Positions 12,038-34,427 of a DNA stretch of 34,427 nt are shown here, in pieces (position 1 is the stretch's first letter; every line of letters starts with the position of its first letter). The notes beneath the pieces are model-generated. The model worked only from the letters and a program-made list of their open reading frames with translations, ran no database searches and was not told the DNA's origin. This DNA comes from Pseudomonadota bacterium (GTDB lineage: Bacteria; Pseudomonadota; Alphaproteobacteria; GCA-2731375), in NCBI GenBank assembly GCA_027623205.1, contig JAQBYC010000044.1, forward strand, positions 1 to 34,427, in the 5' to 3' direction. Both the position numbers and the translations under genes were made by a program.

Positions 12038-12146
12038 TCATAAGCTGACATATATCGAATTGATATAAGATGAATCGAACCTTAGAAATTTGAGGCGTGA
12101 GGGTGGAATTGTCAACTTGGTTGAGGGAGATGAAAGTGCAGGGCCC

Positions 12147-13145: not shown

Positions 13146-13234
13146 TCAAATGGAGTCGCGGCCGCGACTTAGGTGGTTGGTTCAATGGCTCTATTTTGAA
13201 GATTCTGAACACATTTGGATCAAATGTGCTCCAG
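13130..13234 (+). repeat. MITE-like intergenic repeat, copy B
   Basis: 105 bases, same length as copy A and alignable from end to end. It has a perfect 16-base palindrome AGTCGCGGCCGCGACT near the left end and the hairpin CACATTTGgatCAAATGTG near the right end. It ends just before the chosen methyltransferase start, so the frame open from 13196 begins in repeat sequence. Confidence 0.8.
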
Positions 13235-13261
13235 GCGTTTCCACGGCATGGGTTGGACGTT

Positions 13262-14159: not shown

Positions 14160-15512
14160 ATGTGGTTGGACTTAACGAAGGCCGGCTGGGGCCGGCATAA
14201 CGACAGGGACCTACCGCCACGAGTGTTGGCGGCGATCCACGGGCATCAATTGCGGAGCGAAATACTGATCGCCTGGGCTCAGTTGTTGGTTGGTGCCACC
14301 TGGGCCAGCCTGTATGCCTTGACGCCAAAATCGGCAGGGGCCACGTCTATGATTGAGCCCGTGCCCTTCGCTCTTGGCCTGTATCTGGCATTCTCCATTC
14401 TGCGCCTGATCCTGGCCTACCGCGGCTTCGCCGCCGCCTGGTTTCTGGCCTTGTCTGTGCTGGTGGACATGGCCATCCTGATGGCCCTGATCTGGAGCTT
14501 CCATATCCAGTACGAGCAACCGGCGGCTTTTTACTTGAAGGCGCCGACCTTGCTTTATGTGTTCATTTTTATTGCCTTGCGGGCCCTCCGCTTTTCCGCC
14601 GGTTTTGTTCTTTTGTCCGGGGCGGCGGCGGCCATGGGCTGGCTGTTGATGTTGTACTATGCGCTGGCAACCTCAACAGCGCCGAACATGGGCGTGACCC
14701 GCGATTATGTCGCCTATATGACCTCGAACCACATTTTGATCGGGGCGGAATTTGACAAGGTAATCACTATTCTGCTGTCCACGGCCATTCTGGCCACCGC
14801 CCTGTGGCGGGCCCGCCGGCTGCTGGTGCAGTCCGTGGTCGAAGGCCAGGCGCATCGGGATTTGGAGCGGTTTTTCGCGCCGGAGATTGCGCATCAGATC
14901 GTCAGCGCCGAACAAAGAATCCAGGCGGGGCAGGGTGAGATTCGCCAGGCCGCCGTGTTGGTCTGCGATATTCGCGGTTTCACACCCCTGGCCATGGGTA
15001 TGGACCCGGCCGACCTGATGACGTTGTTGGCCGATTATCAAAGCCGCATGGTCAGCGTCATACAGGCCCACGGCGGCAGTATCGACAAGTTCATGGGGGA
15101 TGGCATCATGGCCACCTTTGGCGCCGCCCTGCCGACCGAAACCTATGCCGCCGACGCCCTGCGTTGCATCGAGGCTTTGGGCACGGCGGCAAAGGACTGG
15201 CATGACCAGCGCCAACGGGACGGCCAGCGGCCCTTGACCGTTGGCTTCGCAGTCAGCGCCGGCCCGCTGATATTTGGCGCCGTTGGCGATGGCGCGCGTC
15301 TGGAATTCACGGTGATTGGCGAGCCGGTCAACTTGGCGGCCAAGCTGGAAAACGCCAACAAGGCGGAAGCCGTGACCGCTCTGACCACGGCGCAGACCCT
15401 GGCTTTGGCCCAGGCCCAGGGCTATGCGCCACCAAGGCCCTTGCACGAACGGCCCGCCCGCCCGGTGGCGGGAATCGGGTCGCCCGTAGATCTGGTGGTG
15501 CTTTTGCCGTAA
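14160..15512 (+). CDS. Membrane class III adenylate/guanylate cyclase
   Basis: Makes cAMP (or cGMP) from the nucleoside triphosphate. Residues 30-220 hold about six hydrophobic segments (e.g. ILIAWAQLLVGATWASLYAL, ALGLYLAFSILRLILAY, WFLALSVLVDMAILMALIW). The catalytic domain starts around residue 262. Metal-binding Asp270 lies in CDIRGFT and Asp314 in KFMGDG; Lys310 and the Thr in EFTVIGEPVN fit adenine recognition, so adenylate cyclase is favoured. GEPVNLAAKLE is the usual family block. Length is 450 aa. It ends 30 bases from the convergent SDR gene. A stand-alone cyclic-nucleotide-binding protein occurs at 33033. Confidence 0.9.
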   Translation: MWLDLTKAGWGRHNDRDLPPRVLAAIHGHQLRSEILIAWAQLLVGATWASLYALTPKSAGATSMIEPVPFALGLYLAFSILRLILAYRGFAAAWFLALSVLVDMAILMALIWSFHIQYEQPAAFYLKAPTLLYVFIFIALRALRFSAGFVLLSGAAAAMGWLLMLYYALATSTAPNMGVTRDYVAYMTSNHILIGAEFDKVITILLSTAILATALWRARRLLVQSVVEGQAHRDLERFFAPEIAHQIVSAEQRIQAGQGEIRQAAVLVCDIRGFTPLAMGMDPADLMTLLADYQSRMVSVIQAHGGSIDKFMGDGIMATFGAALPTETYAADALRCIEALGTAAKDWHDQRQRDGQRPLTVGFAVSAGPLIFGAVGDGARLEFTVIGEPVNLAAKLENANKAEAVTALTTAQTLALAQAQGYAPPRPLHERPARPVAGIGSPVDLVVLLP

Positions 15513-16933: not shown

Positions 16934-18121
16934 TTACTTATAGGGATCGGCCGCGTCACGCAGGCCGTCGCCGAAGAAGTTGAAGGCCAGCACAATCAGG
17001 ACCACCGGCAGCATGGGAAAGATCAGCCAGGGATAGGTGGCGACGGCGTTGATGTTTTGCGCCTCGTTCAACAATACCCCCCAGGAAGTGATCGGCGGGC
17101 GCAGGCCCAGACCCAGAAACGACAGCGCGGTCTCGGCCAAAATCATTGAGGGAATAGACAAGGTCAGCGAGGCGATCAGATGGCTCATGAAATTGGGCAG
17201 CAGATGCCGCGCGATGACCCGGGCTGGGCTGGCTCCCATCAATGTGGCGGCGGTCGCGAAATCTTCTTCCCGCAGGGCCAATAGTTTCGAACGCACCGCG
17301 CGGGCCAGGCCGGGCCAATCGAGCAGGGCGAGGATGATGGTGATGCCGAAGAACACCCCGATCGGGCTCCAGGTCACGGGCAGGGCGGCGGACAATGCCA
17401 TCCACAGGGGCAGTTCCGGGAACGACCGCAGCATCTCGATCAAACGCTGCACCACATTGTCCACCCAACCGCCGTAATAGCCGGCCAGGCCGCCCAAGGT
17501 CAGGCCGATCACGAAGCTGATGCTGATGCCGATCAAGCCCACGGTCAGGGAAATCCGCGCGCCATAGACAATGCGGGAAAACATATCCCTGCCCAGCCGG
17601 TCGGTGCCGAACAGGAATAGCGTGCCGTGCACGGTCTTATTGCCGACTTTTTGTTTAGCCGGGCAGAAGAAATGAAACTTCATGCGCCACTGGCCCCAGA
17701 ACTTGTACGGCGCGCCCTCGCAAAAAAACCGGATCGGCTGCACCTGGCTTTTATCCACGGTATAAATCCGCTTCATCTTCTTGATATCCCGGGTCACCTT
17801 GTAGCCATAGACGAAGGGGCCAACGAAATTACCCTGGTCAAACAGGTGCACCATTTGCGGCGGGGCATAGATGAATTTGGCGTTGCGCTTGGCCAAGGGA
17901 TAGGGCGCTACCCATTCCACCATTAAAATGGCCATATAGGTGGCGAGCAGGAAAAACATCGACGCGACGGCCAGGGGATGGCGGCGCAATTTCCACCACA
18001 TCAGGGTCCATTGCGACGCCATGAAGAAGTGTTCCTGCTCCTTCGTCAACCGCTCGATGGTGTGTGGGTGGAATGGCGCGTCCGAGACCCAATGCCGTTC
18101 CTGATCTTCGTGCACGGTCAT
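16934..18121 (-). CDS. Peptide-type ABC transporter permease (DppC/OppC family)
   Basis: Inner-membrane permease of a family-5 (peptide/opine type) ABC importer. The first helix is at about 50-75 (HPLAVASMFFLLATYMAILMVEWV). Residues about 78-165 are a soluble insertion rich in aromatic and basic residues (GYKVTRDIKKMKRIYTVD, FWGQWRMKFHFFCPA) not found in standard DppC, making 395 aa instead of about 290. Then come FGTDRLGRDMFSRIVYGARI and the ATPase-contact EAA loop AATLMGASPARVIARHLLPN. Such insertions occur in a distinct alphaproteobacterial subfamily. The start overlaps the previous permease stop by 4 bases. It is the last gene of the string. Confidence 0.9.
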   Translation of the reverse strand: MTVHEDQERHWVSDAPFHPHTIERLTKEQEHFFMASQWTLMWWKLRRHPLAVASMFFLLATYMAILMVEWVAPYPLAKRNAKFIYAPPQMVHLFDQGNFVGPFVYGYKVTRDIKKMKRIYTVDKSQVQPIRFFCEGAPYKFWGQWRMKFHFFCPAKQKVGNKTVHGTLFLFGTDRLGRDMFSRIVYGARISLTVGLIGISISFVIGLTLGGLAGYYGGWVDNVVQRLIEMLRSFPELPLWMALSAALPVTWSPIGVFFGITIILALLDWPGLARAVRSKLLALREEDFATAATLMGASPARVIARHLLPNFMSHLIASLTLSIPSMILAETALSFLGLGLRPPITSWGVLLNEAQNINAVATYPWLIFPMLPVVLIVLAFNFFGDGLRDAADPYK

Positions 18122-19143
18122 TTCGATGCCTCCGAACCAAGACGGATACGCGGATCAAGGGCCGCCAGGGCGAGGTCGGATATGAACATGCCAACCACCG
18201 TCAAGGCGGCCAGGAACAAAAGGAAGGAGCCGGCCAGATACTGATCCTGGCTTTGCAGCGCGCTGACCAGCATGGGTCCCGAGGTTGGCAGGCTCATCAC
18301 CACGGCGACTATGGCTGAGCCGGAAATCATCTGCGGCAATAGGTTGCCGATATCCGCCACGAAGGGGTTCAGTGCCATGCGCAGGGGGTATTTGAGCAAC
18401 AACGTGCGGTTTTTCAGGCCCTTGGCCCGGGCGGTCGTGACATATTGCTTTTGCAGTTCATCCAGTAGATTGGCGCGCAGACGGCGGATCATGCCGGCCG
18501 TGCCAGAGGTGCCAATGACGATCACCGGCACCACCATATGTTCGCAGATGGACAGGAATTTGCCCCAAGACATGTCCGCGCCGATGAATTGCTCGTCCAT
18601 CAGACCGCCGATGGATACGCCGAAATGTCTCTTTGCCAGGAACAGCAGGATCAGCGCCAAAAGAAAATTTGGTGTCGCCAGCCCGATATAACCGATGAAG
18701 GTCATGACATGATCGCCGACGCTGTATTGCCGTACCGCCGTGTAAACTCCGATGGGAAAGGACACCGCATAGACAAACAGCATGGTAGTGAAGTTCAGCA
18801 CCAGCGAGAGGAACAGCCGGTCGCCGACGATTTCGCTCACGGGCAGATTATATTCAAACGACCAGCCCAGATTTCCTTGCAGGATGCCGGAGAAGCCATT
18901 GTTACTGGGCCAGATCCCAAGCCAGACCGCGTATTGCTCCAACATCGGTTTGTCCAGTCCGAATTCCTGACGGAGAAAAGCCAGCTTTTCCATTGCAGCG
19001 CGGTCGCCGCTGGCGATCATTTCCGCCATCTGGTTTGAGAGATAATCGCCGGGAGGCAATTGGATGATGATGAAGGTGACGACGGATATCACCAGCAGGG
19101 TGGGGATCATCACGAGAACCCGGTGTGCGAAATAGGTGAACAT
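18118..19143 (-). CDS. Peptide-type ABC transporter permease (DppB/OppB family)
   Basis: Partner permease of the same importer, 341 aa. Begins with the typical YFAHRVLVMIPTLLVISVVTF helix and PPGDYL; central FSFEYNLPVSEIVGDRLFLSL precedes the transmembrane core. GTAGMIRRLRANLLDELQKQYVTTARAKGL is the family's EAA region, contacting the ATPase, and PLRMALNPFVADIGNLLPQMISGSAIV follows. It starts 15 bases after the binding-protein stop and overlaps the second permease by ATGA. Confidence 0.93.
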   Translation of the reverse strand: MFTYFAHRVLVMIPTLLVISVVTFIIIQLPPGDYLSNQMAEMIASGDRAAMEKLAFLRQEFGLDKPMLEQYAVWLGIWPSNNGFSGILQGNLGWSFEYNLPVSEIVGDRLFLSLVLNFTTMLFVYAVSFPIGVYTAVRQYSVGDHVMTFIGYIGLATPNFLLALILLFLAKRHFGVSIGGLMDEQFIGADMSWGKFLSICEHMVVPVIVIGTSGTAGMIRRLRANLLDELQKQYVTTARAKGLKNRTLLLKYPLRMALNPFVADIGNLLPQMISGSAIVAVVMSLPTSGPMLVSALQSQDQYLAGSFLLFLAALTVVGMFISDLALAALDPRIRLGSEASK

Positions 19144-19158: not shown

Positions 19159-21066
19159 TTACCTATCGAACCAAAACGTGTCGGGCCGGTAGATACCGAA
19201 ATGGGCCCCCGGATCCCAACTGTAAATGCCCTGTCTGGGGACATTTCTCAAGCCGTGCTTGACCACGACCGGTTGCAGTACCCCGGCGACGATGCCGATG
19301 GAATAGATCTGTTCAGCATGGATGGATAGCATGCGGTGCCAGATGGCCGCGCGCCGGACCGGCTCCGTCACCGCTGTCCATTCCGCTGCCAGCGCCGCCA
19401 GTTCCTGGGCCTCGGGTGTATCTGGGGCCTCGCCCGACAGGCCCGAGGTTTCGAAATACTGGCCCCATTTCGGCCACATCAACTGCTGCTGCGAAGTCGG
19501 GGCCAGTTCCTCGGGGTTGGTTGCCGCCGTGGCGACGCCGTTTTCCAGGCCGCCCCAGATCGACATCTGGGCCTGGCCCGAAAAGACCCGATTGCGGAAG
19601 ATCTCGCGCTGGGATGGTTTGATGAATAACTTGACGCCGACCTCGGCCCAGCTTTCCGCAATCAACTCAAGGACATCGGTCTGTTCCGTGTCCTCGCCGG
19701 CGGTCTCGATTATGATCTGCAGCGGACGTCCATCGGGCAACAGGCGTATATCGTCGTTGTTGTATTTGTTCAGGCCGATCTGGTCCAACAATTCACTGGC
19801 CAGATCAGGATTATAATCGGCCCATTGTTTTTGATACTCTTCCCGAAACAACGGGCTATCCGGCAGCAAGGTGTTATTGCCCGGCAAGGCTAAACCGAAA
19901 AACAACGATTCGTTGATGGCATCGCGATCGACCGCCAGACTCAAGGCGCGCCGAAATTGCACATTGCGCATCAGTTTTGACCAAACCGGATCAGCCACAT
20001 TCAAGTTGGGGAACAGTGCGACCTGCGCACCCTTGGCAATGCGCCACAAGAATGTTTCGAATTCACCGACCGTCTCATTCTCGCGCAAAAAGGTCAGATT
20101 GTTAAAGGTCAGACTGCGGGCCTGTAAATCAACCTCGCCCAACCCGGCCTTGGCGGGGATCAGCTTGCCGTCAGAGACGATCAGGGCGAAGCTATCGAGA
20201 TAGGGCAGTTGCCGGCCCTTTTCGTCAACCCGATGGTAGTAGGGGTTGCGGACGCCGATAAAGCGGGTCGCGGGCGGGCGGGTCCGGTTGATCCAGGGCT
20301 GCAGGGTCGGCAGGTTCGGATTGTCGAACTCATACATGCTGTCGTAACGGTTATGCAACGAGGCCCAACTGCGGGTACGCTGCGTCTTCATTAGTTCGTT
20401 CAATGTTTCCTGGTCGGAATATCTTCCGTGGAACTGTCGTAGATAATGGGCCGGGCGGTAGATGAACAAGGGCGAGGCGGCGGCCAGACTCGGCAGGAAA
20501 AATGGATTGGACGTGGGCCAGGTGAAGCGTACGGTGGTTTCATCCAGGACTTCGAATTTTGGCAGCTGGCCATCGGACAACATCAGCCGCGGCGGTCCGG
20601 CCGGCGAAATTTTCAAATTATTGGCGACATCCTCCCACCAGTAACGAAAATCCTCGGCCGAGAAGAGCTGGCCGTCGGACCATTTATGGCCGCGCCGTAG
20701 TTTAAGGGTGAACTGGCGGCCATCCTTTACATCGACCGATTTCAGAATATCGGGCACGATTTCCAATTTCTCGTTGTAGCCAACCAGCCGGGCATAGCCA
20801 TAGACGACCAGCAGGCGCACATCCTTGGCCCGCCCGATCAAGGAGCGAAGTTCGCCGCCAGGACGGCCGATCTTCCGCGTTCCGGTGAAATGCACGACGG
20901 CAGGCTCGTCGGGTAGTCGCGCCGTGATCCCCGCCAGTTCGCCTGCCTTGACCCTGTTCACGAAAATCGGCGTCTCGACATAGTTCAACGCCATGGCGGT
21001 CGTCGCTGGCGCGGCCATTGCCCATCCCACCAACGCGGCAACAATGCAATTGGTCGTCGGCTTCAT
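19159..21066 (-). CDS. ABC transporter periplasmic substrate-binding protein, family 5
   Basis: Captures the substrate in the periplasm. A signal peptide is visible (basic MKPTTN, hydrophobic core, cleavage near ATTAMA at about residue 26). FTLKLRRGHKWSDGQLFSAEDF is the SBP_bac_5 signature. LRSLIGRAKDVRLLVVYGYARLVGYNEKLEIVPDIL, split by position about 73-108, marks the subfamily that goes with the extended permease. At 635 aa it is about 100 residues longer than DppA/OppA. The substrate (peptide, opine or glycan-derived) cannot be deduced. It starts inside the ATPase stop (TGATG). Confidence 0.9.
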   Translation of the reverse strand: MKPTTNCIVAALVGWAMAAPATTAMALNYVETPIFVNRVKAGELAGITARLPDEPAVVHFTGTRKIGRPGGELRSLIGRAKDVRLLVVYGYARLVGYNEKLEIVPDILKSVDVKDGRQFTLKLRRGHKWSDGQLFSAEDFRYWWEDVANNLKISPAGPPRLMLSDGQLPKFEVLDETTVRFTWPTSNPFFLPSLAAASPLFIYRPAHYLRQFHGRYSDQETLNELMKTQRTRSWASLHNRYDSMYEFDNPNLPTLQPWINRTRPPATRFIGVRNPYYHRVDEKGRQLPYLDSFALIVSDGKLIPAKAGLGEVDLQARSLTFNNLTFLRENETVGEFETFLWRIAKGAQVALFPNLNVADPVWSKLMRNVQFRRALSLAVDRDAINESLFFGLALPGNNTLLPDSPLFREEYQKQWADYNPDLASELLDQIGLNKYNNDDIRLLPDGRPLQIIIETAGEDTEQTDVLELIAESWAEVGVKLFIKPSQREIFRNRVFSGQAQMSIWGGLENGVATAATNPEELAPTSQQQLMWPKWGQYFETSGLSGEAPDTPEAQELAALAAEWTAVTEPVRRAAIWHRMLSIHAEQIYSIGIVAGVLQPVVVKHGLRNVPRQGIYSWDPGAHFGIYRPDTFWFDR

Positions 21067-22952
21067 CAGGACACCCTCGGCAATTGGGCGCCAACGGCGG
21101 CGCGCACAAAATGGCCGCCGCCCGCGTCGATCATATCAGCCATGATGCCTTCATCCAGCGTAAAGGGCGCAGGCCAGGCGCTGGGTACCGATGCCTTGCC
21201 TTCCATCAACGCGGTTAGATCCAGTCTGGCACCGGGATCGGCCTTGGGCACGGCCGCCAGCAGGGCTTGGGTATAGGGATGCATGGGATTGCGGAACAAG
21301 GTTTCCCTTGGCGCCGTCTCGACAATCCGACCAGCGCACATGACGGCGATCCGGTCGGCGACATAGTCAACCACCGCCAGATTATGCGAGATGAACAAAT
21401 AGGTGAGGCCCAGCTCTTCCTGCAGATCCTTCAACAGATTCAATACCTGGGCCTGAACCGAGACGTCCAAGGCCGAAACCGGTTCGTCACAAATCAACAG
21501 ATCCGGTTGCAGCGCCAGTGCCCGTGCAATACCGATCCGTTGCCGCTGGCCACCGGAAAAGCTGTGCGGGTAACGGCGCAAAAAGCGCACATCAAGGCCG
21601 ACCAGGGTCATCAGCTCCCGCACGCGGGCGGCGCGTTCTTCCTGATCACCAATGCTATGAATAATCAATGGTTCGGAAATGATGTCGAACACCGTCATGC
21701 GCGGGTTCAACGAGGAAAACGGATCCTGAAAAATAAATTGCACTTTGCGCCGGAAAGCGAACAGAGCGTCATCGCGCAGGGCCAGAACATCGACGATTCT
21801 ACCATGATCATTGAACGAAAGACTGCCCGCATCAGGGGCTATAGCCCGCATGATCATTTTTGACGTCGTGGTTTTGCCGCAACCGCTTTCACCGACCAGG
21901 CCCAGGCATTCGCCCGGATTGACGTGGAACGATACATCGTCCACCGCCAGCACGCCGCCGCCTGGTTTGCCGCCGAAAATCCTGCGCTTGCGGGTCTCGA
22001 AGGATTTACTCAAATGGCTGACATCCAGCAACGGTCCGGCGGCCCGCGCCGACTCGGGCCATGGCTCTCTCTGCCGCAGCAGATCACCGGCCGTGGCGGT
22101 GATTTCACGCAGGGGCACCAGACGCTCCCCCGGCTTCATGCCGAAGCGGGGCACGGCCCGCATCAGGGCTTTCAGATAGGGATGTTCCGGCTGGTTGTAG
22201 ATATCCGCCACCGGGCCCCGTTCCATGATCTTGCCGTGGTACATCACGACCACTTCATCCGCGACATTGGCGACCACGCCCAAGTCATGGGTGATCATCA
22301 ACACGGCCATGTTCAGTTCCGACTGCAAGTCCGCAATCAACTTCAGGATCTGTGCCTGGATGGTGACGTCCAGGGCCGTGGTTGGTTCATCGGCGATTAG
22401 CAGGGCCGGCCGGCAGACCAGAGCCATCGCGATCATCACCCGTTGCCGCAGACCGCCCGACAGCTCAAACGGGTATTTGAAAATCGCCTGTTCCGGTTCC
22501 GGGAAACCGACCATGCGCAACATCTCCACGGTCATTTCCATGGCCAGCTTATTTGAAACATCGCGGTGCAGCGACAAGGCTTCTGAAATTTGGTTACCGG
22601 TGGTGTGCAACGGCGACAGCGAGGTCATGGGCTCCTGAAAAATGATCGAGATACGGCCGCCCCGCACGGCCCGCATCTCTTTCGAATCCGATCGCAGACG
22701 GGTCAGATCCACGAACGTGCCGGGTTTGTCAGGATCCAGGAACAACACTTCGCCGGCGGCGATTTTTGCGGTGTCGGGCAGGATCCGCATAATGGTCTGG
22801 CTGACGACGCTTTTTCCGGATCCGGATTCACCCACCAAAGCCACTGTCTTGCCCTCGGGCACCGTAAAAGAGATGCCATCGACGGCCCGTATCAAACCTT
22901 CCGCGGCCTGAAATTCGACGACCAGGTCACGCACGCGCAGAACATTTGTCAT
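21066..22952 (-). CDS. Double ATP-binding protein of peptide-type ABC importer (DppD-DppF fusion)
   Basis: Both nucleotide-binding domains of the importer are fused in one 628-aa chain. Domain 1 has Walker A GESGSGKS (41-48), signature LSGGLRQR (164-171) and Walker B LLIADEP with TTALD. Domain 2 has GESGCGKT (354-361), FSGGQRQR (465-472) and LLICDEP (Asp489, Glu490). Each ends with the oligopeptide-type C-terminal extension, e.g. HPYLKALMRAVP and HPYTQALLAAVP. Both sites look catalytically complete. ATG overlaps the stop of the small membrane protein gene (ATGA). Confidence 0.95.
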   Translation of the reverse strand: MTNVLRVRDLVVEFQAAEGLIRAVDGISFTVPEGKTVALVGESGSGKSVVSQTIMRILPDTAKIAAGEVLFLDPDKPGTFVDLTRLRSDSKEMRAVRGGRISIIFQEPMTSLSPLHTTGNQISEALSLHRDVSNKLAMEMTVEMLRMVGFPEPEQAIFKYPFELSGGLRQRVMIAMALVCRPALLIADEPTTALDVTIQAQILKLIADLQSELNMAVLMITHDLGVVANVADEVVVMYHGKIMERGPVADIYNQPEHPYLKALMRAVPRFGMKPGERLVPLREITATAGDLLRQREPWPESARAAGPLLDVSHLSKSFETRKRRIFGGKPGGGVLAVDDVSFHVNPGECLGLVGESGCGKTTTSKMIMRAIAPDAGSLSFNDHGRIVDVLALRDDALFAFRRKVQFIFQDPFSSLNPRMTVFDIISEPLIIHSIGDQEERAARVRELMTLVGLDVRFLRRYPHSFSGGQRQRIGIARALALQPDLLICDEPVSALDVSVQAQVLNLLKDLQEELGLTYLFISHNLAVVDYVADRIAVMCAGRIVETAPRETLFRNPMHPYTQALLAAVPKADPGARLDLTALMEGKASVPSAWPAPFTLDEGIMADMIDAGGGHFVRAAVGAQLPRVS

Positions 22953-23533
22953 GATGGTGACTTCGCATCCGTGATTGCCGCGCTTGGGTCGTTGCTGCCC
23001 AGACCAAGGGACGACAGGTTCGCCGCCGTTGTGGGATCAATGGCCAGGCCACGATCCCGCGCAGCCAGGTAGGCGCGGCGAACAATCTCGTCAAAGCCAG
23101 GTAAATGGGAATCCATGCGGATGGCGCCGCGGTTTGCCGAATTCCAACGCCCCCCGCTGTCATGATCTCCCGGATCACGATTGTCCCCGCGGCGCAGTGT
23201 CAGCTGCATCCAACCCCCTTTCCGGTCGCGCTCGGTAGAATAATAACGAAGGCGAAAATCCCGCATTTCCGACCAGCGTAATTTGCGGTCCAACAATCCC
23301 CCCAAAGGGCCCTCCTGGCGAACACCGATCTCATCAACGATCAAAACCGTACCATGGCGCCACGCCGTGCGCAGACCATATACCGCGAACAACAAGGCCA
23401 AGGCGGTCATGCTATAGAATACAACCGGTATCAGCTTCGTAAAGATCATCAACGCCAACGGCAAAAATACACCAATCGCGGCGCGTACATAATCAGCCGC
23501 CAAGGCTTTTATTGGATAGCGATACCTGTTCAT
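22949..23533 (-). CDS. Small membrane protein of unknown function
   Basis: I do not recognise a named family. Residues about 14-53 contain two hydrophobic helices (AAIGVFLPLALMIFTKLIPV and FYSMTALALLFAVYGL) with a short turn. They are followed by a soluble part with beta-strand character (TVLIVDEIGVRQEGPLGG, LRWSEMRDFRLRYYSTERD, GWMQLTL), which resembles bacterial PH-like domains that sit after a pair of membrane helices. The tail is Asp/Ala/Ser-rich. It overlaps the preceding gene by 1 base (TAATG) and the next by 4, so it is made with the deacetylase-like protein and the ABC importer. Length is 194 aa. Confidence 0.75.
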   Translation of the reverse strand: MNRYRYPIKALAADYVRAAIGVFLPLALMIFTKLIPVVFYSMTALALLFAVYGLRTAWRHGTVLIVDEIGVRQEGPLGGLLDRKLRWSEMRDFRLRYYSTERDRKGGWMQLTLRRGDNRDPGDHDSGGRWNSANRGAIRMDSHLPGFDEIVRRAYLAARDRGLAIDPTTAANLSSLGLGSNDPSAAITDAKSPS

Positions 23534-24297
23534 TACGCCAGCCTAAAGGCTTCATCTGTCGTTAACCAGTGAACGTTGTCACATTCTTTGGTGCGCGCGA
23601 ACAATTCTGCTAGAAAATCCCATCCGGCCTGGTCCATGACGTCGTGATGGCTCAAAATGCCGCTGCTTTCTTCCGGATCAACGGTGCCGTTGCGCCGTTC
23701 CCGCAAGTGGGCGATCAGTCTATCGAGAGCCCTGGTTTCGCCGATGAAGCGGCGTCCACCGTGCCAATCGATCAAATCCAGATGACAATTGCACTCCAAC
23801 AGACCAGGCGCGGGGTGCGCCGCTGCCCGCGGTCCGAAGCGGGACAGACCGCGAAATTGCGCCTGGGGTAGCCGGTGCACCAGATCCGCATCAATCCGGT
23901 TCCACGGTGGTACGAAAACAGGCAAAGCCTGCAGCGGAAAGCGGTCGGCCAGATTTTTCCAGGCAATGGCGGCGTCGTCCAACATCTGGCGGACCGGCCG
24001 ATCGGCGCCAAATTCCGCCTTTTTCCGATCCGCTGGCGCGTGGTTCTGATGGGTTAGCCCATGGACCAGGATTTTCACCCCGGTCAGATCCGCCAGGACC
24101 TCTTGCAAGGCGTCTTCCGCCCGTCCCGGAATAACGGCCAGGGCCAGGGCGATGCCGGCCTTACGCGACAATTCGGTCAGTTGGCGCAGCCGCGGCCCAG
24201 GGGCCACGGCATCGTCATCGCGCCACCACAGGTCCGGCCGCCGCCCTGCCGCCGCCCAGCGCTTCAACTCTTCGATCAGATCGCTCCAGCTTGCCAT
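23533..24297 (-). CDS. Polysaccharide deacetylase-like protein
   Basis: 254 aa with the NodB-homology layout: WWRDDDA (Asp27-29, catalytic base and metal ligand), HGLTHQNH (His79, His83 as zinc ligands), FVPPWNRI (motif 3) and SGILSHHDVMD near the C-terminus (motif 5 His). The fold suggests removal of an acetyl group from a glycan, fitting the glycosyltransferase neighbours. There is no signal peptide, so if active it works on a cytoplasmic, probably lipid-linked intermediate, which is unusual for this family. It starts 32 bases after the glycosyltransferase gene. Confidence 0.8.
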   Translation of the reverse strand: MASWSDLIEELKRWAAAGRRPDLWWRDDDAVAPGPRLRQLTELSRKAGIALALAVIPGRAEDALQEVLADLTGVKILVHGLTHQNHAPADRKKAEFGADRPVRQMLDDAAIAWKNLADRFPLQALPVFVPPWNRIDADLVHRLPQAQFRGLSRFGPRAAAHPAPGLLECNCHLDLIDWHGGRRFIGETRALDRLIAHLRERRNGTVDPEESSGILSHHDVMDQAGWDFLAELFARTKECDNVHWLTTDEAFRLA

Positions 24298-24306: not shown

Positions 24307-24334
24307 AGTCCCCCGTTACCAGTCCCCCGTTACC
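24307..24334. repeat. 14-bp tandem duplication over a stop codon
   Basis: AGTCCCCCGTTACC is present twice in tandem (24307-24320 and 24321-24334). The right copy contains the stop codon (TAA on the minus strand) of the MurG-like glycosyltransferase. The duplication lengthens the spacer to the deacetylase-like gene and places a G-rich stretch before its start. Confidence 0.8.
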
Positions 24335-25526
24335 AGGCCAGTGCCCCGGCCCAGGCGGCGATCTGGCGCGCGCCCTCCGCCGCGCCATCGGTGCGCACAC
24401 CCGCGGTCCCGCCCATGGCGCCGGCCGCCACCGGCGCCCCCTTCAGGGCCCGGTCGATAGCGGTGGAGATCGCGGCCGGTGATAAATCCGTCTCGTCGAT
24501 CACCGTCAGGACGCCGCGTTGCGCCAGCAATTCCGCCCGCAGTGTCTGTTCCGTCTCCAGCCCACCGGCGTAAGGCACGACAATGCCCCGGCAGCCGGCG
24601 TGCATGCATTCCATCAAGGTGTTGTAGCCACCCTGGCTGATGGACAGCACACAGTTCATCAGCAAGGAAGGGAAATCGCCCCGGGCGCGCTCGACCACGA
24701 TACCGCCCTCGCCACCGAATTCCGCCGCCAAGTCGATCAGCGCCTGAAAATCGTCCTCGGGGACCTTGACCCCGACCAGTATCCGCCAGCGCCGGTCGGC
24801 CAGGGCGCTTCCGGCCCGGGCGCGGATGGCCGCCCGCAACAGGGTATCGCCCACGGCCCCGCCGCCCGCCGAGACCAGCACCTCATCCCAGCCGGGGCTG
24901 CCGGGGCCGCCCCGCCGGCCCGTCCGGTCCACGACATATCCCGTGTAATGCAATTTGCCGGCAATCTCCGCCGCATGGGGGAAGGTGGTATCGAATGGGA
25001 TCAAATCCGGGTCGCCGTGGACCAGCACATGATCGAAATAATGCCGCACCCGATCCAGCATTTCCATCAGGCGCTCGGGCTTCGGCGGCGCCACCAGAAT
25101 ATCCCGGACCGAGGAGACGATGACCGGACGCCGTGGGCTGGCCAGGGCCGCGTCCAACAAGGGCAGCAATTCGAACTGCATCTGGCGCCGCCCAAAAGGA
25201 TACAATTCCAACATGATGACATGGGGCTGGTGCCTATGCCAGGCATCTAGCAGGGCGTTGCGCCGCCGGTCCCGCCAGGCGTCATCAATGGGCTGGTCAT
25301 GGTCATCCACCAGCTTCTTGAAATACAGATCGACAGCCCGCACCGGGGGCAACTGCACCAGTTCGGCGCCGCCCAGATCCAGATTTGGAATGCCATGCCC
25401 GCCCGAGACATAGGTGACCGACAGGCCCGCCTCCTGCATGGCCCGGGTCAGCGTGGCGCCCCGGCGTTGATGGCCGATGCCCAGCAGATGCTGGACATAG
25501 AACAGGACGCGCTTGCCATCATTCAT
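24330..25526 (-). CDS. MurG-like (GT28 C-terminal type) glycosyltransferase
   Basis: GT-B fold transferase. The N-terminal VLFYVQHLLGIGHQRRGATL with GIGH is the acceptor-side glycine loop, and the C-terminal SQGGYNTLMECMHAGCRGIVVPYAGG resembles the MurG/UDP-glycosyltransferase donor-binding region. A GLETEQTLRAELLAQRGVL segment follows, where the family reads E-x-x-Q-x-x-(N/R). Donor and acceptor are unknown. ATG 25526 is chosen over the longer frame because it overlaps the phosphatase stop (ATGA) and starts right at the conserved region. Length is 398 aa. It resembles in layout the first gene of this cluster (28695-29963), suggesting paralogues. Confidence 0.82.
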   Translation of the reverse strand: MNDGKRVLFYVQHLLGIGHQRRGATLTRAMQEAGLSVTYVSGGHGIPNLDLGGAELVQLPPVRAVDLYFKKLVDDHDQPIDDAWRDRRRNALLDAWHRHQPHVIMLELYPFGRRQMQFELLPLLDAALASPRRPVIVSSVRDILVAPPKPERLMEMLDRVRHYFDHVLVHGDPDLIPFDTTFPHAAEIAGKLHYTGYVVDRTGRRGGPGSPGWDEVLVSAGGGAVGDTLLRAAIRARAGSALADRRWRILVGVKVPEDDFQALIDLAAEFGGEGGIVVERARGDFPSLLMNCVLSISQGGYNTLMECMHAGCRGIVVPYAGGLETEQTLRAELLAQRGVLTVIDETDLSPAAISTAIDRALKGAPVAAGAMGGTAGVRTDGAAEGARQIAAWAGALAW

Positions 25527-26191
25527 GGGGCGGCCGCCTGATCCACCGGCGCATGACGTGACCGCAAGGGAACATTCATGCGCCATGGCCGTACGGCGCC
25601 CGCGCCATCCACGTTGAACAAATGGGCGCGGTCCCACAGCAGCTTTACCGGCGGCCGGCCCAGCATGTTCCAGTCATAGGCGGCAGCGAAAATCGCCCGA
25701 ATGACCGATTTGTGCGCCACCGCGATATGCCGGCCGCCGGCCTGGCCCAGTTCCGCCAGGAAGGGCCGCAGCCGTTCCTGCACCATGCGCGGACTTTCCC
25801 CGCCCGGGGGCAGAAAATCCAGACCGCGGTGTTCATTCTCCACCATGCCGGCAGCGGGGTCGGCGCGCAGTTCTTCCAGGCTGCGGCCTTCGTAGGCGCC
25901 AAAATCCATTTCGATCAGGCGTGCTTCGATGTGTAACGCGTTGGCGCCTAGTTCACCAGCATCGTCCATGCCTCCGGCCATGTCGCCGGACCCACTTAAT
26001 ATGGCCGCTGTCTGCCGTGCCCGGATTAAGGGGCTGACATGCCAGGTGGCGCCGTCCAGTTCCTCTGGTGGATGCAAACCGGCCAGGGCCAGCCGGCCTG
26101 CTTCGGTCAGGGCGATATCGGCACGCCCGGTCATCCGGCCGTCGCTGTTCCAGGCAGTGCGGCCATGGCGGATCAGGCCCAGCAAGCTCAT
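25523..26191 (-). CDS. Histidine phosphatase family protein
   Basis: Phosphoglycerate mutase-like phosphatase: LIRHGRTAWN near residue 6 has the phospho-accepting His, with an Arg in SPLIRARQTA, catalytic Glu region EMDFGAYEGRSLEEL and second His in IAVAHKSVIRAI. Length 222 aa matches CobC/GpmB-like enzymes. In this setting it may remove phosphate from a sugar phosphate or glycolipid intermediate, but this is inferred from neighbours only. Both ends overlap adjacent glycosyltransferase genes by 4 bases. Confidence 0.88.
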   Translation of the reverse strand: MSLLGLIRHGRTAWNSDGRMTGRADIALTEAGRLALAGLHPPEELDGATWHVSPLIRARQTAAILSGSGDMAGGMDDAGELGANALHIEARLIEMDFGAYEGRSLEELRADPAAGMVENEHRGLDFLPPGGESPRMVQERLRPFLAELGQAGGRHIAVAHKSVIRAIFAAAYDWNMLGRPPVKLLWDRAHLFNVDGAGAVRPWRMNVPLRSRHAPVDQAAAP

Positions 26192-27345
26192 GGCATTATC
26201 TCTCCCAGGACATTGGCGATACTCTGCGCCGCTGCCGCTACCGTGCGTTCCCCGCGTACGAATGCGAGGGCGCCATCGGATAGCGTCTGCCGCAGGACGG
26301 GGTCATCCAGCAATCGCCGCGTGGCGGCGGCAAAAGCGGCGTCGTCTCCCGGCGCGGTCAACAGGCCGGTCTCTTCATGGCGCACCACATCCGGCACCCC
26401 CCGTTCATTGCCGGCGACGACCGGCAGGCCCATCGCCTGCGCCTCCAAATAGGCCATGCCGTAGGCCTCGCCCACGCCGGGCCACAGGTAAAGATCACAG
26501 GCCGCGTACAGTTCAGGTAATTGTACCTGGGGCAAGGCGCCGGTCAGGACCAAAGCGCCATGGCGATTGCGAGCCACGGGCGCCAGGGCGGCGGTGACCT
26601 GATGCCGGGCCGGGCCGTCGCCGACCACCAATAATTGCCAATCACCGCCACCCAGATGCGCCAGGGCAGCGCCCAGCCGTTGATAGGATAGCAGCTTGTC
26701 GCCCGGCCGCATCATGGCCACCGCCAACAACCAGCGCCGTTCCGGGTCCAGCCCGAAACGCCGCGCCAATTCGGTCCGGCCGGTCTGCGCCGTCCGGGCC
26801 CGGACAAACGGTTGCGGGTCGAGAAAGGGCGGCAGAAAGAACAATCGATGTCCGGCGGGCACCAGGGGGCGGACACAGGCCATATCCAACCGGGTCATAC
26901 AGAATACGCAATCCGCCGCCGCGATGGCACGGGCCGCGGCGCAATGGCCTATATCCCACGGCCCGCCGGCTCGTTTCGGCGCGAACGAGGCCTCGGCTAC
27001 CAGATAGGGAATTTCCAGGGCCGCCGCCACCTTTGGGCCAATCCAGTCCGGCGCCTTGTGGTACAGGTGATAGGTGAACCAGGCGGTTGGCCGGGCGGCG
27101 TCCGTCAGGGCGCGGTATTGGCCAATCAATCTATCCGCCACGGCATCGCCTTCGCTCTGCAGCGCCTTTTGCCGTACCTCATCCCCCTGTCCGTCATAGG
27201 ATCGAAAATCCGACGCCAGTTCCACCTTGGCGCCGGTCGTTTCGAGGGCCTGGATCAACAAACGCGCCATCTGCCGATCTCCTGACGGCGTCGGGTGGGT
27301 CGGCGCCTTCAATGGTGCATAAAAGGCGACGCGCCGGGTCGCCAT
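26188..27345 (-). CDS. GT4-family glycosyltransferase
   Basis: 385-aa retaining GT-B transferase. The N-terminus AFYAPLKAPTHPTPSGDRQM is the acceptor-domain start. The donor-domain features are RWLLAVAMMRPGDKLLSYQR, WQLLVVGDGPAR and the EX7E-type segment GEAYGMAYLEAQAMGLPVV. Sugar and acceptor cannot be assigned. ATG 27345 is chosen because it shares one base with the upstream stop (TGATG) and places the conserved region at the start; a longer frame to 27435 lies within the upstream gene. Confidence 0.87.
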   Translation of the reverse strand: MATRRVAFYAPLKAPTHPTPSGDRQMARLLIQALETTGAKVELASDFRSYDGQGDEVRQKALQSEGDAVADRLIGQYRALTDAARPTAWFTYHLYHKAPDWIGPKVAAALEIPYLVAEASFAPKRAGGPWDIGHCAAARAIAAADCVFCMTRLDMACVRPLVPAGHRLFFLPPFLDPQPFVRARTAQTGRTELARRFGLDPERRWLLAVAMMRPGDKLLSYQRLGAALAHLGGGDWQLLVVGDGPARHQVTAALAPVARNRHGALVLTGALPQVQLPELYAACDLYLWPGVGEAYGMAYLEAQAMGLPVVAGNERGVPDVVRHEETGLLTAPGDDAAFAAATRRLLDDPVLRQTLSDGALAFVRGERTVAAAAQSIANVLGEIMP

Positions 27346-28658
27346 CAGGCTTTCCCGACGTTGCCGTCGGGACCGGTATCGGCGTCGGCAGCCATCTCGG
27401 GCAGGGCAAATTTGCGGGCCAGCCGTCTGATCCAAAAATTGTGGGAAAACTGGCTCCTGACCCGTTCCTGACCAGCCTGGCCCAATTGCCGGCGCCGGGC
27501 CGGTTCCGCGATCAGACCGGCCAGGGCCCGGCTCAGTTCCGCCCGATCGCGGCTTTCGACCAGGATTCCTGTCTCCCCATGGGTGATCAGCTCTGGGATC
27601 GCCGATACCCTGGTCGCGATACAGGTCAGACCCTGGCTTTGCGCTTCCATCAAGACATTGGGCAGGCCGTCCCGGTCGCCATCGCCCGCGATCCGGCTGG
27701 CAAGGACAAAAATGTCGGCGTCCCGATAGGCCGCCAGGACCGCCTCCAGCGGCTGCGCGCCGCGCCAGGTAATCCGGTCCGCGATACCCGCCTGTTTGGC
27801 CTGCTGTTGCAGTTTGTCCGACAGATTGCCGCCGCCGATATGAACCAGACGCCAGTGCAGCGATGGCGGCAGGGCCGCCAGGGCGGCGATCAGATCGTCA
27901 TAGCCTTTCTTGCCGACAGCCCGGCCGACCGAGAGGATCCGCACCGGGTCGGTTTCATTCCGGCCGTCACGATCGGCGCAGGCTTTGGCCGGCGGCGCGA
28001 ATTGGGCCAGATCGATACCATGATAAATAAGCTCCACCGTGCCCTGGGCATTGTTTTGTCCATTATTCTTGGGCGCCAATGCCGCCAGATGATCATGGGC
28101 GGCCTGACTGCAGGTTACCAGCCAGTCCAGATCAGCCAGTTTTTCCCGCTTCTCCCAGTCGGGGATGGTCCAGATATCCTTGGCATGGGCTGAGCTACTC
28201 CACCGGCGGGCCGTCAGGTGGGCCGTGTAGCGGGCAACAGAGGCGGGGGTGTGCAGGAAATGGGCATGCAGATGACGGACCTCGTCACTCAATTCCGCCG
28301 CCAATACCAAGGCCTGGCCAAATCGGCGGATGCGATTAGGGCTGCGGTCGCGCCGCAGATCCCGCAGCCACAGGCGCCGCGCGGCGCGATAGCCAGGCCA
28401 TTGCCGCACCAGCTTCCAGGCACGCCAAAGCCGCAGCGGTTCCTGGTACAGGTATTCCGGCAGGTAATTGACCGATGCGTTGATGCGCCGGTGCACCGGA
28501 TGCACGGCCCGCTCAGTCGGGTGCCGCAGCGAGATGATGCGAATGTCCAGGCCTCGCTGTTCCAACGCTTCAATCTCTTGCGCGATGAAGGTTTCCGTTA
28601 AGCGGGGATAGCCCTTCAAAATAAAGGCAACCGGTTTCACTGCTGTATAGGGCCCCAT
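27345..28658 (-). CDS. GT4-family glycosyltransferase, exopolysaccharide (WcaL/AmsK-like) type
   Basis: Begins with VAFILKGYPRLTETFIAQEI, a hallmark of colanic-acid/amylovoran type GT4 enzymes that extend polysaccharide repeat units. HLHAHFLHTPASVA and SSSAHAKDIW (acceptor domain) and SVGRAVGKKGYDDL and GDGDRDGLPNVLMEAQSQGL (donor domain, EX7E-like) are visible. Length is 437 aa. ATG 28658 is chosen; the frame also has a TTG at 28679. Neither has a strong ribosome site. The gene starts 36 bases after the preceding one. Confidence 0.87.
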   Translation of the reverse strand: MGPYTAVKPVAFILKGYPRLTETFIAQEIEALEQRGLDIRIISLRHPTERAVHPVHRRINASVNYLPEYLYQEPLRLWRAWKLVRQWPGYRAARRLWLRDLRRDRSPNRIRRFGQALVLAAELSDEVRHLHAHFLHTPASVARYTAHLTARRWSSSAHAKDIWTIPDWEKREKLADLDWLVTCSQAAHDHLAALAPKNNGQNNAQGTVELIYHGIDLAQFAPPAKACADRDGRNETDPVRILSVGRAVGKKGYDDLIAALAALPPSLHWRLVHIGGGNLSDKLQQQAKQAGIADRITWRGAQPLEAVLAAYRDADIFVLASRIAGDGDRDGLPNVLMEAQSQGLTCIATRVSAIPELITHGETGILVESRDRAELSRALAGLIAEPARRRQLGQAGQERVRSQFSHNFWIRRLARKFALPEMAADADTGPDGNVGKA

Positions 28659-28694
28659 GGTCAAGGTCACGCCGTCCAATTCTGATAGAGGGCG

Positions 28695-29963
28695 TCAATC
28701 TCCCAATGATACCTTGGCCCGTTTGTCCACCGCGACCTGTTTCGCCGCCGCATCCGGCGCCATGTCCGGCTCGGACAGCCACGGCGCCACCAGGCGGTTG
28801 ACGTTGTCCAGGCCTTCCAGCAAGCCAGGCACGATGATATCCCGGGGCTTGTTTTGATAGGGCAACTCTTGCAGCGCCTTGCCCATGACCGCCGCGTCCC
28901 GTTCGCCATCGTCTTCCAGCATGCGAACCAGCCCCAGTTCCTGCGCCCGGCTGGCGCGGATAAATTGCTCCATCCGGGGCCGGGTGCGCGGGATGATCAG
29001 GGCCGGCTTGTTGAAGCTGAGGATTTCGCAGAATGTGTTGTAGCCACCCATGGCCACGACACCGACGGCATTGTCTTCCAATTCCTCCAACTTCGCGTCG
29101 AAGGTGATGGCCTGCACCCGGTCCAATCGGTTCGCCCGGTCGATGAATTCCGCCTGGGCTTCGGGTTGCATGAACGGACCCAGGACAATCAGCGCCGGAT
29201 ACAGCGTGCGGCTGTCGGTTTCGTAGGCGCGCAGCACCCAATCGACCAGTTCCTCGCCATCGCCACCGCCCCCGGTGGTCACCAGTAAATAGGGTTCGGA
29301 GACGATTTCCGGCAGCGGCCGGGTCGAAGGCTCGGTCGGCGCGCGCCGCTGCAGATAGCCGGTATAAACCATCCGCTCGCGCACCCGACACGGCACCGGC
29401 AGACCCTCCAGGGGATCGCAAATCTGCGGCAGACCGTAAACCCAGATTTCATCATACAGATCGCGCAGCGCGGGCATGGCGTTTTTGCGCCGCCATTCGG
29501 GCGCCAGCATCAGCGGGTCATCCATGATATCGCGCAGGCCCAACACCAGCCGGGTGCCCCGCGCTTTCAACATGCGCAGGGTCTCTTCGATCTCGCCGCG
29601 CAGGCCCAGGGGCTCCTTGTCCACGATCACCAAGTCGGGGGCGAAGATATCCGCCGTATGTTTGATGATCGCCGCCCGCATATGAATGGTTTGCTCGAAA
29701 TCGATGCCCAGGTTCAACGATGTGTATTCGCCGTTGCGCAGTTTGATCACGCCGGGAATACGCACGAAATCAACGCGGGAGCGAAAATCGAAACTGCCGA
29801 TGATCGGCGAGCCGGACAGAATGAGCACCGACAGATCGGGGTATTGGCGCACCAGGGAATGGGCGATGGTGCTGCACCGCCGCAAATGACCCAAACCCAT
29901 GGTATCGTGGCTATAGATTAGAACACGAAAGCCCCGCATACCTTCCAGCGTGCCTTGAGGCAT
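28695..29963 (-). CDS. MurG-like glycosyltransferase, first gene of the glycan/importer string
   Basis: 422 aa, GT-B fold. FRVLIYSHDTMGLGHLRRCS (residues 12-31) has the glycine-His loop at the acceptor side. YLLVTTGGGGDGEELVDWVL and VVAMGGYNTFCEILSFNKPALIIP are donor-side motifs resembling MurG and the 24330 gene. The acceptor is unknown. GGGAGAG lies about nine bases before ATG 29963. It is divergent from the 902-aa ABC protein gene, so a shared regulatory region of 253 bases separates the two transcription units. Confidence 0.83.
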   Translation of the reverse strand: MPQGTLEGMRGFRVLIYSHDTMGLGHLRRCSTIAHSLVRQYPDLSVLILSGSPIIGSFDFRSRVDFVRIPGVIKLRNGEYTSLNLGIDFEQTIHMRAAIIKHTADIFAPDLVIVDKEPLGLRGEIEETLRMLKARGTRLVLGLRDIMDDPLMLAPEWRRKNAMPALRDLYDEIWVYGLPQICDPLEGLPVPCRVRERMVYTGYLQRRAPTEPSTRPLPEIVSEPYLLVTTGGGGDGEELVDWVLRAYETDSRTLYPALIVLGPFMQPEAQAEFIDRANRLDRVQAITFDAKLEELEDNAVGVVAMGGYNTFCEILSFNKPALIIPRTRPRMEQFIRASRAQELGLVRMLEDDGERDAAVMGKALQELPYQNKPRDIIVPGLLEGLDNVNRLVAPWLSEPDMAPDAAAKQVAVDKRAKVSLGD

Positions 29964-33032: not shown

Positions 33033-33509
33033 ATGAGCCTGAACGAAGAAGTTGAACTGCTGCGCAGTATCCCGTTGTTCGCCAATATCGAACCTTCCAA
33101 GCTGAAGCTGTTGGCCTTCACGTCGGAACGTCTGGCCTTCCAGGAGGGGCAAAGTCTTTTTCATCAGGGCGACATGGGTGATGCCGCCTATCTGGTGGTG
33201 GACGGCACCGCCGACGTGGTGATCGAGGGGCCCGACGGCGGCAAGCTGACGGTGGCCCAGATTGGCCGCAATGCCTTTGTGGGTGAAATCGCCATTCTGT
33301 GCGATGTGCCCCGGACCGCCACGATCACCGCCACGACAAACCTCGATACGCTGCGGATCAGCAAGGAGCTGTTTTTTCGTCTGGTGAATGAATTTCCCAC
33401 CATGGCGGTGGAAATCATGCGCGAGCTGGCGCGGCGGCAGGAACAATCCAATCTGCAACTGACCGAAGCCAACCGCCGGCTGCGGGAATTGGAGAGTGCC
33501 GGCGCTTGA
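33033..33509 (+). CDS. Stand-alone cyclic-nucleotide-binding domain protein
   Basis: 158 aa consisting of a single cNMP-binding beta-roll: LRSIPLFANIEPSKLKLLAF, EGQSLFHQGDMGDAAYLVVDG, and a phosphate-binding cassette GEIAILCDVPRTATI containing the Glu and Arg that hold the cyclic phosphate and ribose. A C-terminal helix (AVEIMRELARRQEQSNLQL) follows, but no DNA-binding HTH, so it is not a Crp-type regulator by itself. It probably binds a partner. ATG 33033 is preferred for its GGAG ribosome site over the open frame from 32994. Its place between the ABC protein and the methyltransferase is consistent with nucleotide control of that trio. Confidence 0.87.
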   Translation: MSLNEEVELLRSIPLFANIEPSKLKLLAFTSERLAFQEGQSLFHQGDMGDAAYLVVDGTADVVIEGPDGGKLTVAQIGRNAFVGEIAILCDVPRTATITATTNLDTLRISKELFFRLVNEFPTMAVEIMRELARRQEQSNLQLTEANRRLRELESAGA

Positions 33510-34000
33510 GCCGTCTGGACAGCGCCATTCGCCGCCTGCAGGCGCAGCGGGCCTGCCTGGACTGGGCCATGGCCGAGATTGCCGGGCAATCGGGTCCGGT
33601 GCTGGAATTGGGCCTGGGCAATGGCCGCAGCTATGATCATCTGCGCCATAATTTGCCGGGGCGCGAGATCTTTGTCTGCGAGCGCAAGGTTGCCGCGCAC
33701 CCCGATTGCATACCCGACGACCGGCATCTGTTGCTGGGCGACTTCACGGATACGCTGCCCGGCGCCCTGTCGCGCCTGGGGGCGCGGGCGGTTCTTGCCC
33801 ATTGCGATATTGGCAGCGGCGATAGCGCCCTGACCGCGGCGCTTGCCACCTTTGTCGGCCCCGCGCTGGCGCCTCTGCTGGCAACCGGCGCCGTGGTGGC
33901 GGCCGATCAGGCCCTGGATATTCCCGGCTGCCGGGCGGTCGCCCTGCCCCCTGGCGTGGCGGCGGGCCGCTACCACCTGTATCGCAACAGCCCGAAATGA
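33506..34000 (+). CDS. Small class I SAM-dependent methyltransferase-like protein
   Basis: 164 aa. PVLELGLGNGRSYDHLR (about 31-47) is methyltransferase motif I, and EIFVCERKVAAHPDCIPDD follows with the acidic residue after strand 2. HLLLGDFTDTLP and AVLAHCDIGSG resemble motifs II-III. The start is TTG overlapping the preceding stop as TTGA, with GGAGAG 9 bases upstream; an ATG does not occur at a sensible place. The substrate is unknown. Its tight coupling to the cNMP-binding gene suggests a shared function. Confidence 0.8.
   Translation: MSRLDSAIRRLQAQRACLDWAMAEIAGQSGPVLELGLGNGRSYDHLRHNLPGREIFVCERKVAAHPDCIPDDRHLLLGDFTDTLPGALSRLGARAVLAHCDIGSGDSALTAALATFVGPALAPLLATGAVVAADQALDIPGCRAVALPPGVAAGRYHLYRNSPK

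Positions 34001-34358: not shown

Positions 34359-34427
<69 letters not shown>

Follow-up and report, generated by a model that had tools for sequence, protein, structure and literature searches.

A gene module related to the phazolicin-protecting polysaccharide locus of Sinorhizobium meliloti, with a degenerate ABC protein and a possible role in surface-glycan synthesis

The stretch of DNA analysed here (the window; 34,427 nucleotides, positions 1 to 34,427 of contig JAQBYC010000044.1, alphaproteobacterial assembly GCA_027623205.1) contains a module of approximately 22 kb that consists of a translationally coupled operon, a divergent trio of genes, ABC-CNB-MT17, and, beyond the last gene of the operon, genes for an MBL-fold hydrolase, the methyltransferase MTx and a class III nucleotide cyclase (Table 1). 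The operon, GTA-GT4a-GT4b-HisP-GTB-PDA-M194-OppDF-OppA-OppB-OppC, spans positions 29963 to 16934 and couples the genes for four glycosyltransferases, a cytosolic CE4-family deacetylase and a histidine phosphatase to those of an Opp-type importer. Most of the junctions are overlaps of 1-4 bases, and the remaining gaps are 15-36 bases long: the ATG of GT4b at 27345 overlaps the stop codon of GT4a by one base, the starts of HisP (26191) and GTB (25526) overlap the preceding genes by four bases each, the ambiguous start of GT4a leaves 15-36 bp after GTA, and 32 bp separate GTB from PDA. The coupling and the presence of a histidine phosphatase, both proposed in the initial annotation of this DNA, are thus borne out, but the span given there for the cluster, 24330-29963, is too narrow, as it stops just short of PDA and cuts the operon in half; the Opp importer, MBL hydrolase, additional methyltransferase and cyclase are likewise missing from the membership listed there. 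As that annotation stated, no flippase, polymerase or priming transferase is found among the 18 Pfam-scanned proteins of the region 12090-34000. The 253 bp between GTA and the divergent ABC gene yielded no sigma-70-like promoter, and a candidate Clr-box in this intergenic region was rejected because its score of 10 out of 12 was reached by 289 of 500 shuffled sequences, that is, no better than chance.

Table 1. Genes of the module, with positions in the window and the basis of each assignment
Gene	Product	Position	Strand	Basis
GTA	GT-B glycosyltransferase (Glyco_tran_28_C), RedA-like	28695..29963	-	Pfam; 51% identity to S. meliloti pSymB homologue
GT4a	GT4 glycosyltransferase, RedB-like	27345..28679	-	Pfam, NCBIfam; 51% to S. 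meliloti
GT4b	GT4 glycosyltransferase	26188..27345	-	Pfam; 42% to S. meliloti 1021 locus L118 7584-8663
HisP	Histidine phosphatase, branch 1	25523..26191	-	Pfam PF00300
GTB	Second GT-B glycosyltransferase (Glyco_tran_28_C)	24330..25526	-	Pfam; 39% to S. meliloti homologue
PDA	Cytosolic CE4 (NodB-type) deacetylase (predicted)	23533..24297	-	Invariant residues, AlphaFold2 (AF2), Foldseek
M194	Small protein, hydrophobic N-terminal part (read from sequence)	22949..23533	-	
OppDF	Fused ATPase with two nucleotide-binding domains, Opp/Dpp/Gsi-type importer	21066..22952	-	Pfam
OppA	Family-5 solute-binding protein	19159..21066	-	Pfam
OppB	Permease	18118..19143	-	Pfam
OppC	Permease, last gene in coupled operon	16934..18121	-	Pfam
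ABC	MsbA-type half-transporter, expanded degenerate nucleotide-binding domain, 902 aa	30217..32925	+	
CNB	Stand-alone cyclic-nucleotide-binding protein without helix-turn-helix, 171 aa	32994..33509	+	
MT17	S-adenosylmethionine-dependent methyltransferase (PF12692)	33506..34000	+	Pfam
MBL	MBL-fold hydrolase	12090..12983	+	Pfam
MTx	Methyltransferase (PF13578)	13196..14098	+	Pfam
CYC	Class III nucleotide cyclase (PF00211)	14160..15512	+	Pfam

A tblastn search of plasmids with GTA returned 275 records, mostly from Rhizobium and Sinorhizobium, and the homologous locus on pSymB of Sinorhizobium meliloti turned out to have a name, PPP, for phazolicin-protecting polysaccharide (Travin et al., 2023; PMC10128002). 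Clear S. meliloti homologues exist for 12 of the 17 genes in Table 1, with identities, beyond those of the glycosyltransferases in Table 1, of 40% for PDA, 43% for MBL, 61% for OppDF, 50% for OppA, 56% for OppB, 62% for OppC, 38% for ABC and 54% for CNB, so that the gene set by which a PPP locus can be recognised, namely glycosyltransferases, deacetylase, ABC protein, cyclic nucleotide (cNMP)-binding protein and Opp importer, is present in full. In that study, nine genes in the interval smb21252-smb21271 are necessary for tolerance to phazolicin, and mutants of smb21252 or smb21265, each annotated as a glycosyltransferase, are eight-fold more sensitive than the wild type (minimal inhibitory concentration of 0.18 vs 1.47 ug/mL); the authors treat the product as a polysaccharide permeability barrier, without chemistry (PMC10128002). 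The same text, citing others, mentions orthologues in a pyocyanin screen of A. tumefaciens and in transposon sequencing (Tn-seq) with Medicago, as well as a link to cyclic AMP, and a further report describes induction of seven of the nine PPP genes by Myxococcus attack (PMC10315480). Counting genes in strain R28 from the tags published for a deacetylase (SMb21247), an aminotransferase (SMb21248) and a sulfotransferase (SMb21249) (PMC5498481) places smb21252 at the homologue of GT4b and smb21265 at that of GTB; an assignment of smb21265 to GTA was dropped in favour of GTB given these anchors.

On sequence grounds, the locus is therefore already known as the chemically uncharacterised PPP locus of S. 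meliloti, and the window holds a variant form with a distinct gene content. The prospect raised in the initial annotation, that the cluster might be a known pathway under another name, is partly realised (PMC10128002), and its statement that the product is not obvious from known loci stands in so far as the product is still unassigned, because the PPP name carries no chemistry. Literature searches with the PPP name, the smb tags and combinations of gene names (including COG4671 and Azospirillum) returned neither a structure for PPP nor a description of the form found in the window. What is new here is the breadth and the composition of the module, the degenerate ATPase domain of its only exporter candidate, and a cNMP-binding protein with a conserved pocket and no DNA-binding domain.

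The components of the module are inherited together. Among 116 genomes of relatives, GTA has matches in 47 at E<=0.001, of which the 44 at E<=1e-50 were treated as orthologues (one of these, in genome G083, is doubtful at 35% identity), ABC in 43 (E<=1e-60), PDA in 42 and M194 in 43. GTA and ABC are both present in 41 genomes, GTA alone in three (G003 and G039, both assemblies of at least 230 contigs, and G083), ABC alone in two (G058 and G084) and neither in 70 (Fisher p=2.7e-25); with one genome per family (102 genomes) the counts are 28, 2, 2 and 70 (p=1.9e-20), both p-values being uncorrected for shared ancestry between families. The loci labelled as betaproteobacterial fall within the class Gammaproteobacteria. 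Of 185 genomes sampled from this class around G120, a genome chosen for having the cluster, G120 and G214 alone have GTA (E<=1e-60), and the same two have ABC (E<=1e-100). The co-occurrence with the ABC/cNMP trio and the conservation of the neighbourhood, which the initial annotation had put forward as checks, thus both hold up, and the members do not scatter in related genomes.

A contig scan yielded 589 loci, the best 80 of which, all in named genomes, were compared gene by gene. In the 56 of these with at least 9.5 kb after GTA, GT4a is present in 56, GT4b in 53, HisP in 49, GTB in 53, PDA in 48, M194 in 46, OppDF in 54 and OppA in 43; where 4.5 kb or more precede GTA (64 loci), ABC was found in 45, CNB in 53 (some of these matches, with identities near 30%, are weak and could represent other proteins) and MT17 in 37, the latter being found in 39 of all 80. 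The hosts of these 80 loci include Azospirillum, Inquilinus, Dongia, Ferrovibrio, Oceanibacterium and Kordiimonadales, together with genomes and metagenome-assembled genomes labelled Betaproteobacteria, Burkholderiales, Nitrosomonadales and Comamonadaceae; because the cluster is conserved across many families, chance is excluded as its source. ABC is present in all six beta-labelled genomes checked (43-45% identity), in four of them on one stretch with CNB downstream of OppC, and the notion that the beta loci lack ABC was accordingly rejected. MBL lies beside ABC in three of these four stretches (L122-L124, not L121), and a further beta-labelled contig without Opp genes (L125) carries MBL, MTx, ABC and CNB; identities in these loci are 58-60% for MBL (L122-L125) and 55% for MTx (L124 and L125). 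In 20 further flanks from relatives, OppDF, OppB and OppC occur in all 20, MBL in nine, MTx in eight and a strong match to the cyclase, beside OppC, in seven (48-88% identity). The arrangement varies: in Azospirillum and in one locus labelled Roseomonas (L082, L083, L092 and L093), the segment GTB-PDA-M194-Opp is found across ABC/CNB from the rest, in inverted orientation in L082, L083 and L092, with the parts still within about 20 kb. A GTA-like gene (66% identical; L112:14977-16221) also stands alone near the end of a plasmid record of Azospirillum sp. TSA2s, apart from the module.

The four glycosyltransferases comprise two proteins with a GT28-C-type domain (PF04101 at 22.8 and 39.2 bits; cut-off, 22) and two GT4 proteins (PF00534/PF13692), in agreement with the initial annotation as to number and type; the label "MurG-like" used there is, by profile score, valid at the superfamily level only, given that GTB reaches 20.3 bits with the NCBIfam murG equivalog model (cut-off 250.25) and GTA has no listed murG match. 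GT4a matches the EpsE model at 150 bits, under its cut-off of 400, and 149 columns of the GTA alignment (84 sequences) are at least 95% conserved. In HisP, R8, H9, R57 and H160, the residues expected for catalysis in this family, are kept in at least 95% of 63 sequences.

PDA and M194 have no match in Pfam or NCBIfam, and PDB sequence searches with PDA gave chance matches only. Across 47 sequences of PDA, R26, D27-D29, H79, H83, N133, R134, D174, H217 and H218 are invariant, and include the residues expected for the metal-binding and catalytic site of the CE4 family; combined with the AF2 model (pLDDT 97.4), these residues point to a NodB fold with a D-H-H metal site and a His base. Since the predicted CE4/NodB fold extends from about residue 4 onward, no signal peptide is seen, which agrees with the signal-less deacetylase of the initial annotation. 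Foldseek matches the model to CE4 deacetylases including PgdA and ArnD, with a viral turret protein in the top row and TM-scores on the query of 0.5-0.7; the fold is therefore secure, unlike the subfamily.

ABC is a fused ABC_membrane and ABC_tran protein, unlike the separate ABC-2 permease and nucleotide-binding domain (NBD) of KpsMT- or Wzm-Wzt-type capsule export. Its best NCBIfam match is the MsbA model (177.5 bits, below the cut-off of 602), profile searches of the PDB place chains of ABCB4, MsbA and related exporters near the top, and the AF2 model (pLDDT 85.8) aligns with MsbA 7ph3 at a Foldseek TM-score of 0.63 on the target. The motifs of a functional exporter, Walker A K-S/T, Walker B D-E and LSGGQ, are not retained: among 52 homologues, the Walker A Lys position is occupied by K in 29 and by R in 16, three retain the Ser/Thr after it, and two the Walker B Asp (N in 31, S in 16). 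In all rhizobial (three) and beta (five) copies read, the Walker A Lys is missing, and the five beta copies keep the Walker B Asp with the Glu replaced by Gln or His. The OppDF homologues of the same loci served as a control: all 56 carry the canonical Walker A motif twice and LSGG twice, and 55 have two DEP motifs. Between its Walker A motif and the signature region, ABC is expanded by an insertion of about 270 residues, which contains three conserved (D/E)N..(F/Y)G segments (approximately residues 461-466, 595-600 and 753-758) and looks like a repeated helical-subdomain element; N462, E595, N596 and N754 are kept in 52 of 52 homologues. Judged from these residues, the sole exporter candidate of the module, recognised as such in the initial annotation, which missed the degeneration, has a family-wide degenerate ATPase domain, and may pair with a canonical half-transporter, serve as a scaffold or act without hydrolysis. 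Plasmids of the Roseobacter group (Phaeobacter, Sulfitobacter, Roseobacter) encode proteins whose similarity to ABC is confined to its first ~350-360 residues, the transmembrane domain (L117:17773-19077); in Phaeobacter inhibens P70 this is a protein of 434 aa among copper genes, and an NBD-less relative of ABC may thus exist.

CNB has PF00027 as the sole domain found, most homologues being 151-188 aa long, and, without a helix-turn-helix, does not qualify as a CRP/FNR transcription factor. The phosphate-binding cassette is conserved (R107 in 60 and E98 in 58 of 62 homologues), and CNB is similar to both cGMP- and cAMP-kinase domains, so that similarity does not tell the bound nucleotide. The cyclase shows domain-level similarity only (26-31%) to rhizobial cyclases. 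A short-chain dehydrogenase gene lies between the cyclase and OppC (15543-16520), a place kept in close relatives (L126, L144) and not in distant ones, and a tRNA gene (34359-34427, Rfam) is truncated by the right end of the window.

Taken together, these observations suggest, with moderate confidence, a surface-glycan module of the PPP type in which a lipid-linked, partly de-N-acetylated glycan is moved out by the MsbA-like ABC protein under cNMP control. The four glycosyltransferases would build the glycan in the cytoplasm, most likely on a lipid carrier; PDA would deacetylate amino sugars of the nascent product, or remove a related acyl group from them, in the manner of NodB or ArnD; and HisP would take phosphate off an intermediate, the order of these steps, the structure of the glycan and the identity of its sugars being inferred. 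Carrying the product across the membrane would be the dedicated task of the MsbA-fold protein, transport being presumed to run outward, and CNB would tune this protein in response to cyclic nucleotide from the class III cyclase encoded close by. Opp might return fragments or supply a precursor, and the finished envelope polysaccharide could act as a barrier to permeation, the role proposed for the S. meliloti homologue. A bolder version, in which the ATPase-dead ABC-type protein is a cyclic-nucleotide-gated translocator or assembly switch and CNB, not ATP hydrolysis, opens the membrane step, is put forward as a speculation that we regard as unlikely; if true, glycan output would track cyclic AMP or cyclic GMP directly, without transcription, as a cNMP counterpart of polysaccharide secretion gated by cyclic di-GMP.

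Several observations weigh against the PPP-type glycan interpretation. The placement of the smb tags is a count, not a lookup, even if both tags land on glycosyltransferases, as PMC10128002 requires. The rhizobial loci hold a UDP-glucose dehydrogenase, and two of the three regions read hold a polysaccharide lyase; neither family is among the 18 scanned proteins, and the S. meliloti lyase has no relative in the genome to which the window belongs, in a search without a positive control, so that the product of the module may differ from the rhizobial one. In the literature found, these two enzymes are not shown as required for PPP. Conversely, HisP and M194 have no match in the rhizobial regions compared, and no glycan is reported for a PPP-type locus in any organism in the literature found. 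The NBD of ABC is without residues that ATP hydrolysis should call for, and the case for a conventional export step is weaker as a result. As to initiation, the genome, 96.9% complete, has no PF02397 priming transferase (controls positive in 9 of 14); it has three PF00953 proteins, all on other contigs, through one of which a WecA-type start is possible, a case weakened by MraY presumably being one of the three. One PF04932 and one OPX protein are also encoded on other contigs. The module itself lacks the combination of priming transferase, Wzx and Wzy typical of capsule and exopolysaccharide loci; Wzx was not searched genome-wide.

This deficit is turned into an argument by the alternative that the module adds a short fixed glycan to a membrane lipid (lipid A core, hopanoid, sphingolipid or Nod-factor-like lipo-oligosaccharide) and that ABC flips the resulting glycolipid: polymerase and primer would be absent because no polymer is made. 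The affinity of ABC to lipid flippases and the cytosolic location predicted for the deacetylase, as for NodB and ArnD, fit this scheme, but the rhizobial UDP-glucose dehydrogenase and polysaccharide lyase fit a uronate polymer, and the PPP authors treat the product as a polysaccharide barrier, though without chemistry; on balance, lipid decoration seems rather less than probable. It is quite improbable that a peptide or oligosaccharide imported by Opp is glycosylated and deacetylated into a small compound that ABC exports. The Opp genes do belong to the same coupled operon and are nearly constant companions of it (OppDF and OppC above), and OppA has both oligosaccharide- and peptide-binding proteins among its relatives, the nearest solved ones being 5ipw (3e-85), SPH1118 (4e-62) and the alpha-galactoside-binding protein 6epy (6e-28). 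The pectin-oligosaccharide specificity of SPH1118 was, however, rejected for OppA: of the five ligand residues compared, N53, R57, R438, R466 and W594 (PMC9314435), OppA, on reading of the alignment, keeps just R466 and W594, and no ligand can therefore be assigned; the barrier phenotype of the S. meliloti homologue (PMC10128002) likewise speaks against a small secreted compound. That the glycosyltransferase cluster, the Opp importer and the ABC/cNMP trio are independent systems lying side by side by chance is scarcely credible, given the co-inheritance documented above and the persistence of the reordered parts together in beta-labelled genomes, Azospirillum and rhizobia, even though the blocks lie in different places in some genomes (e.g., G055, G106 and G036) and G058 and G084 have ABC but no strong match to GTA.

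The orphan phenotype of S. meliloti PPP thus becomes that of a widespread module with a defined gene set, found across many families of Alphaproteobacteria and, here and there, in beta-labelled genomes, so that glycan discovery can be moved to simple free-living hosts. The likely transport and control parts can be named, a degenerate ABC protein and a stand-alone cNMP receptor, which makes an unusual control of glycan export testable.

Compared with the CE4 deacetylases NodB, ArnD and PgdA, PDA has the same predicted fold and the expected metal and catalytic residues but, in contrast, goes unrecognised by the domain databases. ABC shares the fold of transmembrane and nucleotide-binding domains with MsbA/ABCB-type half-transporters and differs from them by the NBD insertion and by the loss, in most homologues, of the Walker A Ser/Thr and the Walker B Asp. 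The redA/redB region of plasmid pA of Rhizobium etli CIAT 652 shares with the window OppDF-A-B-C, redA (53% identity to GTA), redB (51% to GT4a), GTB (39%), ABC (39%), CNB (55%) and MT17 (41%), whereas no match to PDA, GT4b or HisP is found in this stretch; literature searches on redA/redB found no function for the red genes. The shared parts of the S. meliloti PPP locus (smb21252-smb21271, pSymB) are collinear with the window in blocks. The S. meliloti region adds the dehydrogenase, the lyase and an FkbM methyltransferase, and sits downstream of a region of sugar-transferase, polysaccharide-export and sulfotransferase genes that the window lacks, whereas HisP, M194, MT17 and MTx set the window form apart.

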